Source: Cellulomonas palmilytica
GTDB taxonomy: Bacteria > Actinomycetota > Actinomycetes > Actinomycetales > Cellulomonadaceae
Reading direction: 5' to 3'
Assembly: GCF_021590045.1 (NCBI RefSeq)
Contig: NZ_CP062221.1
Span: 2,294,001 to 2,358,000 of the forward strand
Length of the DNA: 64,000 nt
Every line of letters begins with the position of its first letter. Positions within the stretch are counted from its first letter, which is position 1. The position numbers and the translations under genes were made by a program. The notes beneath the pieces are model-generated. The model was not told where the DNA came from, made no database searches, and was given only the letters and a program-made list of their open reading frames with translations. Of the stretch, positions 805 through 54,002 are shown one piece after another.

Positions 805-2372
805 CCGCCTCGCGCGTGCGTGCGCTGTCGATCGCCGGCACGGACCCGACCGGCGGCGCCGGGATCCAGGCCGACCTCAAGTCGTTCGCCGCGCACGGGG
901 CCTACGGCATGGCCGTCGTGACGGCGCTCGTCGCGCAGAACACGCGGGGCGTGCGCGCGGTCCACGTACCGGAGCCGGACTTCCTGCGCGCGCAGCTCGA
1001 CGCCGTGAGCGACGACGTGTCGGTGGACGCGGTGAAGATCGGCATGCTCGCGACGCCGCAGGTCGCGGCAGAGGTGACGGCGTGGCTCGACCGGCAGCGC
1101 GCCGCGGGCCGTCGGCCCGTCGTCGTGCTGGACCCGGTCATGGTCGCGACGAGCGGGGACCGGCTGCTCGAGCCGGAGGCCGAGGCCGCGGTGCGCGCGC
1201 TGGTGGCGCGTGCGGACCTGGTCACGCCGAACCTGCCCGAGCTGGCGGTGCTGGTGGACGAGCCGACCGCGGGCACGTGGGCGCACGCGCTCGACCAGGC
1301 CCACCGGCTCGCGAGCGGGTCCGGGACCACGGTGCTGCTCAAGGGCGGGCACCTGGGCGGGTCGACGAGCCCGGACGCGCTGGTCGGCCCGGACGGCCAG
1401 GTCGTCGAGATCGCGGCGCAGCGCGTCGTCTCGACGAGCACGCACGGCACGGGCTGCTCGCTGTCGGCCGCGGTCGCGGCGCTGCGGCCCGTGCGTGACG
1501 GCTGGCCCGAGACGGTCCGCGAGGCGAAGCGGTGGCTCACGGGTGCGATCGCCGCGGGCGAGGGCCTGCAGGTCGGCTCGGGGCACGGCCCGGTCGACCA
1601 CCTGCACCACGCGCCCGGTCTGGGTGCGCGCGCCTTCACGGCGGACGTCGCGGGTCGCGTCGCCGACGCGACGCGCCGGTCGGCCGAGCTGCCGTTCGTG
1701 CGGGCGCTCGTCGAGGGCACGCTGCCTGCCGAGCGGTTCGAGGACTACGTGCGGCAGGACGCGCTGTACCTCACGGACTACTCGCGCGTCCTGGCGCGTG
1801 CGAGCCAGCTAGCGCCCGACGGGGAGGGCCAGGCGTTCTTCGCGCGCGGGGCCGCCGCGTGCCTCGACGTCGAGCGACGGCTGCACGACGAGCGCCTCGC
1901 GCGGGCCGGACGGCGCGCGGTCCGCGTCGCGGGGCCGTCGCGGGTGACGACCGCGTACGTCGACCACCTGCTCGCCGTCGCGGCGACGGGGTCGTACGCC
2001 GACGTCGTCGCGGCGGTGCTCCCGTGCTACTGGGTGTACGCCGACCTCGGGGCGCAGCTGCGTGCCCGGGTCACACACCTGTCGGCGGATCTCGCGACCC
2101 ACCCGTACGGCGACTGGCTCGGGACGTACGGCGACACCGAGTTCGCCCAACTGGCGGTACGGGCACGCGAGCTGGCCGACGCCGCCGCCCGCCCGCTGGA
2201 CGCCGCGGGCCGTGCCCGGATGCGGCACGTGCTCGCCGTCTCCTGCGAGCACGAGGTCGCGTTCTTCGCCCAGGTCGGCACCGCGCCGCATCCGGCTACC
2301 CAGGTGCAGGACGACCCCGCGGTGCCGGGCACGCTCGCACGCTCGTCGGCGGACGCCGTGCCCGTGGCGTGA
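801..2372 (+). CDS. thiD: ThiD-TenA fusion: HMP(-P) kinase / thiaminase II-like protein
   Basis: A 523-aa bifunctional protein. Residues 1 to about 262 are the hydroxymethylpyrimidine (phosphate) kinase ThiD, seen from the opening SIAGTDPTGGAG, the VKIGML and LDPVM motifs and the C-terminal STHGTGCS anion hole. Residues about 285-505 are TenA, the aminopyrimidine salvage hydrolase, with the conserved LPCYWVY motif (Cys409 the likely nucleophile) and the F.DYV.QD opening. The pair would recover degraded pyrimidine and phosphorylate it for ThiE, encoded just upstream with a 4-bp overlap. Fusions of these two domains are known in actinobacteria. An open frame continues upstream of 801, but GTG 801 fits the start of the kinase fold. 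Confidence 0.92.
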   Translation: MTASRVRALSIAGTDPTGGAGIQADLKSFAAHGAYGMAVVTALVAQNTRGVRAVHVPEPDFLRAQLDAVSDDVSVDAVKIGMLATPQVAAEVTAWLDRQRAAGRRPVVVLDPVMVATSGDRLLEPEAEAAVRALVARADLVTPNLPELAVLVDEPTAGTWAHALDQAHRLASGSGTTVLLKGGHLGGSTSPDALVGPDGQVVEIAAQRVVSTSTHGTGCSLSAAVAALRPVRDGWPETVREAKRWLTGAIAAGEGLQVGSGHGPVDHLHHAPGLGARAFTADVAGRVADATRRSAELPFVRALVEGTLPAERFEDYVRQDALYLTDYSRVLARASQLAPDGEGQAFFARGAAACLDVERRLHDERLARAGRRAVRVAGPSRVTTAYVDHLLAVAATGSYADVVAAVLPCYWVYADLGAQLRARVTHLSADLATHPYGDWLGTYGDTEFAQLAVRARELADAAARPLDAAGRARMRHVLAVSCEHEVAFFAQVGTAPHPATQVQDDPAVPGTLARSSADAVPVA

Positions 2373-8395: not shown

Positions 8396-14591
<6,196 letters not shown>

Positions 14592-20849: not shown

Positions 20850-25906
<5,057 letters not shown>

Positions 25907-26000
25907 ACTTACTTGCTACGCGTCCACTGTGCGGTTCCCGAGAAACGAACGACACCCGTTCGACCACGGTCGAACCGGTTCCCGTTCACAACTCGACAAA

Positions 26001-26118
26001 GTTACGGCGGTCATAGCGAAGGGGAAACGCCCGGTCCCATTCCGAACCCGGAAGCTAAGCCCTTCAGCGCCGATGGTACTGCACTCGCCAGGGTGTGGGA
26101 GAGTAGGACGCCGCCGGA
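26001..26118 (+). rRNA. rrf: 5S ribosomal RNA
   Basis: Typical actinobacterial 5S: 5' GTTACGGCGGTCATAGCG, internal CCCATTCCGAACCCGGAAG, TAAGCCCTTCAGCGCCGATG, and 3' GGACGCCGCCGGA, with the closing helix CGGCGG/CCGCCG. About 118 nt; ends approximate by one or two bases. Confidence 0.95.
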
Positions 26119-26126
26119 CACCATTC

Positions 26127-52956: not shown

Positions 52957-52986
52957 GCGGTGGACGGCGGACTCGTCGTCCACCGC
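52957..52986 (+). terminator. suf operon terminator
   Basis: GCGGTGGACG (52957-52966) pairs with CGTCCACCGC (52977-52986) around a 10-nt loop, 16 nt after the sufT stop. Confidence 0.7.
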
Positions 52987-53006: not shown

Positions 53007-53036
53007 TTGCTCGGGCGAGCCCGCCCGCGTTAGCGT
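53007..53036 (+). promoter_or_regulatory. Promoter of the riboswitch-CxxC transcript
   Basis: TTGCTC (53007-53012), 18-bp spacer, TAGCGT (53031-53036). The expected start, about 53043, coincides with the 5' end of the riboswitch fold. Confidence 0.6.
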
Positions 53037-53042
53037 CTCGGC

Positions 53043-53128
53043 AGGTCAAGAGTGACCAGCGACACGCCCTCCGCGTGCTGGTCCGGCAACCGCGCAACCT
53101 CGCGCACGGTGCCCCGGGGGAAGACCGG
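53043..53128 (+). promoter_or_regulatory. SAM riboswitch candidate (SAM-I clan, SAM-IV or SAM-I/IV type)
   Basis: The leader reads GGTCAAGAGTGACCAGC then GACA and continues to GTCCGGCAACC, CGGTGCCCCGGGG and GACC. P1 is GGTC (53044-53047) with GACC (53123-53126). P2 is a perfect GACCAGC (53054-53060) with GCTGGTC (53077-53083), with an inner ACGC/GCGT stem and a GAC bulge. P3 pairs GGCA (53085-53088) with TGCC (53110-53113), with a CGCG/CGCG tip. A CCCC/GGGG P4 follows. This is the arrangement I recall for actinobacterial SAM-IV leaders. The remaining 43 nt hold a GC-rich hairpin and the GGGAG site of the next gene. Confidence 0.7.
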
Positions 53129-53171
53129 CCCGACGGCGACCGCCGCCGGGAAGTGCGAAGGGAGTACACCC

Positions 53172-53930
53172 ATGTCCGAGACGTACCTGCGCGCCGACGG
53201 TCTCGTCGAGCTGCGCCCCGACCCCGCGACCCTCGCGCAGGCCGCGCGCACCGGGGTCACCGTCATCACCCGCGGGGAGCTGTGCACCGCGTGCCTCGTC
53301 GGCGACTGGGGACAGTCGCTGCTCAAGGTCACCAAGACGCTGTGCGACGACTGCACGTGGCTCGAGTCCGAGGTCGCGCGCCGTGCCGGGACCGCGCGGT
53401 CGCGTGCGGGCCGGCCGGCCGGCGGCGGGGTCCTGCAGGTCGCCGGGAGGACGGACCCGTACGACGAGGCGTGGGCGCCGGTCCGGGCCGCGTACGGGGT
53501 GCGCACGCGGCGGCTGGTCGAGGTGTTCGACCGGGCCGTGGCGCTCGGCGTCCCGCTCGTCGACATCGACACGGGCGACGGTGACGGGCGCACCGTCCGC
53601 GCCGTCGCGCGGGAGGACCTGCGCCGGCACGAGCTGCTGGACGAGTCCGCGCCGGTGCGGGTGCGCCGGTTCGCCGCGTGGCTGCGCGTCCTGGCTCCCG
53701 AGGACCACGCCGCGCGCGCGGACGTGCTCGCGGACGTCCGGGGGCTCGCCCGCGCCCTGTGCGCGCACCAGGACGAGGTCCGTGCGGCGCGGGCGCGGGC
53801 GGACCTGGAACGCGCCACGCGCGAGGCGGTCCAGGGGCTCACGGCGGTCGGGCGCGCCCCCGTCGCGCTGGGAGCGGCGGCGGGACGGGTGGTCCGCACG
53901 CGGCTGACTCGGTCCGGCTCCCGGGCATGA
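53172..53930 (+). CDS. Hypothetical protein with a CxxC-x16-CxxC knuckle, under the SAM-type leader
   Basis: A 252-aa soluble protein I do not recognise. Cysteines C38, C41, C58 and C61 form two CxxC pairs (CTAC, CDDC) that likely hold a zinc or iron atom. The remainder is rich in Arg and Ala and probably helical, with a long charged helix near 195-220. No membrane helix or signal peptide is seen. GGGAG precedes ATG 53172. Its own promoter and leader make it a one-gene unit: it is flanked by terminators. Control by SAM would suggest a link with methionine, SAM or sulfur metabolism; the suf operon upstream makes the sulfur link attractive, but this is inference. Confidence 0.75.
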   Translation: MSETYLRADGLVELRPDPATLAQAARTGVTVITRGELCTACLVGDWGQSLLKVTKTLCDDCTWLESEVARRAGTARSRAGRPAGGGVLQVAGRTDPYDEAWAPVRAAYGVRTRRLVEVFDRAVALGVPLVDIDTGDGDGRTVRAVAREDLRRHELLDESAPVRVRRFAAWLRVLAPEDHAARADVLADVRGLARALCAHQDEVRAARARADLERATREAVQGLTAVGRAPVALGAAAGRVVRTRLTRSGSRA

Positions 53931-53960: not shown

Positions 53961-54002
53961 GGGACGGCGGTGCGACCCTCTGCGGGCGCGCACCGCCGTC
54001 CC
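53961..54002. terminator. Bidirectional terminator
   Basis: A perfect 14-bp inverted repeat (53961-53974 with 53989-54002) between the converging CxxC and NYN genes. Confidence 0.8.

Follow-up and report, generated by a model that had tools for sequence, protein, structure and literature searches.

SAM riboswitches are thought of as feedback control of methionine and SAM supply. The closest described relative of the locus studied here is SAM-IV (Rfam RF00634), which the cryo-EM structure paper (PMC6890682) describes with the helices P1, P2a, P2b, P3 and P5 and the pseudoknots PK-1 and PK-2. SAM-I/IV (RF01725) belongs to the same clan and, as described in PMC2864571, has no internal loop in P2. 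We analyzed a 64,000-nt stretch of Cellulomonas palmilytica DNA (hereafter the window), in which a leader in front of an orphan gene matches RF00634 over the full length of the model, with 77.3 bits against a gathering cut-off of 38 (E 5.1e-12, cmscan). The first-pass annotation had taken this leader for a SAM-type switch. The Rfam search bears this out and places it in SAM-IV, not SAM-I/IV, as the clan relatives overlapping the same positions (53044-53161, forward strand) score lower.

The sequence elements named in that annotation are all present, including a perfect 7-bp P2a helix, and their order agrees with that in PMC6890682: P1, P2a, P2b, P3 and P5 follow one another without a P4 between P3 and P1. 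P2 contains the internal loop that SAM-I/IV lacks. The two pseudoknots can be drawn in the window, PK-1 with five of five pairs (one of them U-G) between the P2b loop and the strand after P3, and PK-2 as UCGC/GCGA between the P3 loop and the strand after P5 (Table 1). The ligand core of SAM-IV is kept, with GCAACC and GGUGCC in P3 and a G in J1/2. The equivalent P3 core holds the ligand in SAM-I, whose SAM contacts are G11, A45, A46, U57 and G58; the bases touching SAM here are assigned by analogy with SAM-I. The leader differs from RF00634 in that PK-1 is of a CCUCC/GGAGG type, P2 carries single-base insertions, the J segment before P1 reads AA rather than the UGAA of the Rfam consensus, and PK-2 touches the Shine-Dalgarno sequence, ending one base before it (the Shine-Dalgarno sequence starts at 53159, the ATG at 53172). 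It also differs in its target: a methionine or sulfur gene, which is usual for SAM-IV without defining it, is not what follows in the window.

Table 1. Features of the orphan locus (window positions; variant leaders are those of the SAM-IV subtype described in the text).
Feature	Position	Strand	Observation
13-nt inverted repeat between sufT and promoter	52957..52986	+	12/13 nt match
Putative -35 TTGCTC, 18 nt before -10	53007..53012	+	from sequence; exact word recurs only in C. uda orthologue
Putative -10 TAGCGT	53031..53036	+	TANNNT conserved in position
SAM-IV riboswitch aptamer (RF00634)	53044..53161	+	cmscan 77.3 bits, 1-116/116
P1 5' strand, partner 53123-53126	53044..53047	+	second pair A-U in 18, G-C in 12 of 30 variant leaders
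P2a 5' strand, partner 53077-53083, 7 bp	53054..53060	+	
P2b 5' strand, partner 53073-53076	53064..53067	+	
PK-1 5' strand CCUCC, partner GGGGG 53116-53120, one U-G	53068..53072	+	
P3 with GCAACC / GGUGCC core	53085..53113	+	core kept in 30 variant leaders
PK-2 5' strand UCGC, in P3 loop, partner GCGA 53155-53158	53100..53103	+	
P5 hairpin, one A-C mismatch in window	53129..53150	+	both-side changes at 3/8 pairs, nine relatives
PK-2 3' strand GCGA, directly 5' of Shine-Dalgarno	53155..53158	+	
Shine-Dalgarno AGGGAG	53159..53164	+	GGAG invariant in 13-leader alignment
Orphan gene, 252 aa, two CxxC pairs	53172..53930	+	ATG 53172, 7 nt after Shine-Dalgarno
14-nt perfect inverted repeat 3' of gene, possible terminator without T run	53961..54002	+	14/14 nt

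Folded as a single sequence, the leader is no more stable than its shuffles (z 0.17), and the structure of lowest energy differs from the SAM-IV fold. The evidence for the fold is therefore the covariance model and the comparison of relatives, not folding energy. The minimum-energy fold contains a GGUCA/UGACC hairpin (53044-53048 with 53053-53057) incompatible with P1 as well as with P2a; speculatively, it might be the unbound form of the switch. Of the five SAM-IV matches in the window genome, the four besides this leader precede genes that we identified by eye: a class V aminotransferase, a very short ORF, an NADPH-FMN-reductase-like protein and a PLP aminotransferase. At one locus of this genome (L002), a SAM-IV (1501-1614, minus strand) and a SAM-I riboswitch (1734-1832, plus strand) occupy opposite strands with about 120 nt between them, followed by a class V aminotransferase ORF and a rhodanese-like protein, respectively (named by eye).

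The proposed promoter stands in part. The two hexamers with their 18-nt spacer exist, and a TANNNT hexamer starts 13-16 nt 5' of the switch in 12 of 13 family loci, but each hexamer matches only three of six positions of the E. coli consensus (counted by hand), and a consensus promoter scan of the window locus found none. Likewise, the gene had been placed between terminators: inverted repeats do flank it, yet a terminator scan found no hairpin with a T run on either side. Its position directly after the suf operon holds, with sufD, sufC, sufS and sufU all above their curated cut-offs and the last gene before the orphan locus matching SufT-type models below the cut-off. Elsewhere in the window, positions 20850-26119 carry a complete 16S-23S-5S rRNA operon.

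As had been proposed, the switch precedes a CxxC protein that matches no methionine gene: the 252-aa product contains two CxxC pairs and matches nothing in Pfam, NCBIfam, PHROGs or PADLOC. Among known zinc-ribbon and zinc-knuckle families there is no Pfam or NCBIfam match and no significant fold match. C38, C41, C58 and C61 are invariant across 18 aligned proteins (alignment A3), with a single cut-down copy lacking the first. An AlphaFold2 model built from 13 sequences (pLDDT 77.6, pTM 0.71) is confident at residues ~100-220 and of low confidence at 49-54, 80-94 and the C-terminal end; it has no significant structural relatives. From the cysteine pattern and the genes found behind the leader subtype (see below), we infer that the conserved cysteines may bind zinc and that the protein may be a small regulator, binding nucleic acid or protein, rather than an enzyme of sulfur metabolism.

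We searched for relatives protein-first, with a profile of seven proteins against the family's 221 genomes. It detected relatives in 13, two of which belong to the same genus as the window, and in 13 of 13 Rfam places a SAM-IV riboswitch directly 5' of the gene (the window, C. uda [L001, also L008] and the 11 loci L009-L019), so that homologues do keep the leader. Start codons lie 7-14 nt after the end of the Rfam match. Across the same 78 pairs, the proteins share a mean identity of 0.33 (minimum 0.18) and the aptamers one of 0.93 (minimum 0.84). The gene is a one-gene unit whose neighbors differ between genomes. In G130 (L035, 1501-1998), one P1 pair is broken in a copy of the window family whose protein is cut to 122 aa and lacks the first cysteine; this copy is apparently decaying. 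In L021, ORFs that by eye resemble an excisionase and an integrase (144-380 and 9291-10508, both minus strand) lie near the gene.

The suf genes stand beside the gene in the window and in C. uda; tblastn found none beside it in the other 11 stretches (L021-L031), of which L023 is a 4.7-kb contig with little visible. A close orthologue of the NYN gene that borders the window locus is present in only two of 23 genomes searched, G029 and G036. In G029, which belongs to the same genus, sufT and the NYN gene are ~290 bp apart, without leader or orphan gene, compared with ~1,070 bp in the window; in G036, sufT was not seen in the stretch around the NYN gene.

The window leader is, by its sequence, a member of a subtype of SAM-IV with a PK-1 of the CCUCC/GGAGG type, a point that is new here. 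A covariance model from nine family leaders (R1) had matches in 103 of the 396 genomes searched in the order and, with E no higher than 1e-9, in 52 of the family's 221 genomes; a second model from 30 variant (subtype) leaders (R2) had matches in 41 of the 394 genomes searched in the class. We examined 143 loci (the 90 best R1 places in the order, 29 from R2 in the class and 24 from R1 in the family, one site being counted twice), which a script split into 69 variant, 59 canonical and 15 unclear. Target genes were labeled with motif expressions checked by reading, not with profiles. Four orphan kinds of protein account for the targets of 57 variant leaders: a GHxxHxIQ family (22), CxxC proteins (19, of which 14 are the window family itself), repressor-like proteins (8) and an LWxDRLxAG family (6), with two further leaders before a CxxC protein joined to a repressor-like motif. 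None of the 69 is followed by metY, metX or a methionine-transporter gene. Among the 12 unlabeled loci, L188 precedes a methionine-synthase-like gene, a weak match (43.9 bits against a cut-off of 406), no clear gene follows at three (L038, L063 and L142), and the rest precede further unrecognized proteins. By contrast, 44 of the 59 canonical leaders precede metY (22), a MetQ-like gene (14) or metX (8); the remainder precede LLM monooxygenases (3), peptide-binding proteins (2), an aminotransferase (1) and nine unlabeled genes, which on reading proved to be six class V aminotransferases, one LLM-type gene, one unrecognized gene (L071) and one locus that is really a variant (L145). The 15 unclear loci are, by eye, mostly further variants before other orphans. 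Eleven more R1 sites in the family, all variant by sequence, precede five CxxC, three repressor-like, two GHxxHxIQ-type and one other protein, again with no methionine gene.

Several of the repressor-like proteins are relatives of phage immunity repressors. Five match phrog_3929 (transcriptional repressor) with E from 3.6e-31 to 1.5e-11, and L037 does so with 6.4e-19; L041 reaches only 0.23 and L067 does not match. The L185 protein matches 172 phage records, all of Streptomyces phages, and the 12 records listed are annotated as immunity or transcriptional repressors. The window protein itself matches no PHROGs family, phrog_3929 included, at E up to 1, and three other protein sets behind subtype leaders have no detectable relation to it. 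A remote relation does exist to 200-aa proteins of L178, L180, L182 and L186 (hhalign probability 94.9, E 4.2e-8), which share the double CxxC and the leader subtype with the window but have an extra N-terminal Cys/His stretch, a shorter C-terminus and a gene start 99-108 nt after P1. At ten loci (L177-L180, L182, L183, L185, L186, L188 and L037) the distance from P1 to the gene start is 93-124 nt, compared with 46 nt in the window, so the switching part there must differ. Other variants of SAM-IV precede further short orphan families in other families of the class (L140, L148, L152; L139, L144, L145, L147). Behind one such variant, in which P3 base pairs are changed around a kept AA-U core, lie cysteine-rich proteins with four CxxC or CxC pairs (L149, 920-1471, and L150, 902-1471, both minus strand), whose relation to the window family is not significant.

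Leaders of ten window-type proteins and those of six repressor-like proteins share a mean identity of 90%, while the proteins are not alike. Because canonical leaders before metY are also 88% identical on average, the argument rests on the unrelated genes and not on conservation alone. In L174 (G210, 1501-1920), a subtype leader is followed by nine residues like the N-terminus of the window family and then by an unrelated orphan, which looks like a gene swap behind the leader. The closely similar leaders before unlike proteins, together with this junction, suggest that the leader is the constant part and that the gene behind it is exchangeable.

These observations bear on what the protein does. 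It had been suggested that it takes part in the homeostasis of sulfur, SAM or metal, in which case the position behind suf would be meaningful. The cysteine pairs, the suf genes in the window and C. uda, and the methionine genes that canonical SAM-IV mostly controls all agree with a real part in sulfur, Fe-S or SAM homeostasis. Still, we consider this unlikely: among 12 other loci only C. uda has suf beside the gene, none of the 11 remaining relatives having it within the stretch read, and a gene present in 13 of 221 genomes is dispensable. The reading is also weakened because subtype leaders precede unrelated orphans and relatives of phage repressors, which it does not predict.

Another ligand, such as SAH or a SAM derivative, would account for the different genes, and the split of targets between subtype and canonical leaders, as well as the differing J and P2b-loop sequences, fits such a change. 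The bases that match the SAM-I contacts are nevertheless conserved both in the window and across the variant alignment, and all 20 variant loci given to Rfam exceed the SAM-IV cut-off (43.5-74.5 bits), making a change of ligand quite improbable.

Comparison of relatives also speaks to whether the leader is maintained. Across 30 variant leaders, 99.8% of the cells for P1, PK-1 and P3 are paired, and five of the 15 pairs have changed on both sides; versions of the pairing slid along the sequence reach at most 59.5%. None of 500 shuffles, which take no account of relatedness, reaches the covariation score of these helices, so that covariation in homologous leaders is present. Of five measures, one does not exceed the shuffles: the count of further pair types, which 58 of 500 reach. 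PK-1 keeps all five pairs, counting G-U, in 39 of 41 variant leaders and has both-side changes at three of five (alignment A6). For PK-2 we measured the longest Watson-Crick run between P3 loop and tail, counting any register and leaving relatedness uncorrected: the mean is 4.90 in 69 variant leaders against 4.14 with partners swapped (sd 0.11, highest 4.43), and 4.88 against 4.57 (sd 0.09) in 58 canonical leaders. The nine-leader family alignment taken alone is less informative, as 31 of its 40 pairs never vary and two of five measures are not above shuffles; in it, the first (U-A) of the four PK-2 pairs fails in four of nine relatives. On these sequence comparisons, both pseudoknots can form and co-vary among relatives. 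The idea that the leader is a remnant in decay, left over from a methionine gene and kept in sequence by chance, is thus hardly credible: the G130 copy with its lost P1 pair and protein cut to 122 aa has this appearance, but PK-1, P1 and P3 co-vary across the 30 variant leaders, and GGAG and the -10 are conserved.

We therefore favor, as the likely explanation, a one-gene cassette that has its own promoter and joins a SAM-IV riboswitch belonging to a distinct subtype to a small lineage-specific protein, exchangeable behind the leader. Because the PK-2 strand lies directly before the Shine-Dalgarno sequence, we infer a translational OFF switch: at high SAM, PK-2 would close over the Shine-Dalgarno sequence and translation of the orphan gene would probably be shut off, and as SAM runs low the protein would be made. 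The leader would serve as a conserved platform behind which genes are swapped. The phage-repressor relatives suggest an element-related role worth testing. A bolder version, in our view a long shot, sees the subtype as an alarm for SAM depletion that triggers interchangeable, phage-related effectors: SAM would be drained by a phage or mobile element, PK-2 would open, and a small regulator (the CxxC protein in the window, a relative of phage immunity repressors elsewhere) would be made and act on the invader.

In the cassette reading, the locus is an example of a riboswitch that stays constant while the gene downstream changes. The shared leader gives a handle by which to group genes that no protein profile connects. 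In our sample of Actinomycetes, the subtype does not precede the usual methionine genes and stands before several unrelated orphan families and relatives of phage repressors, which would point to a second use of SAM sensing.
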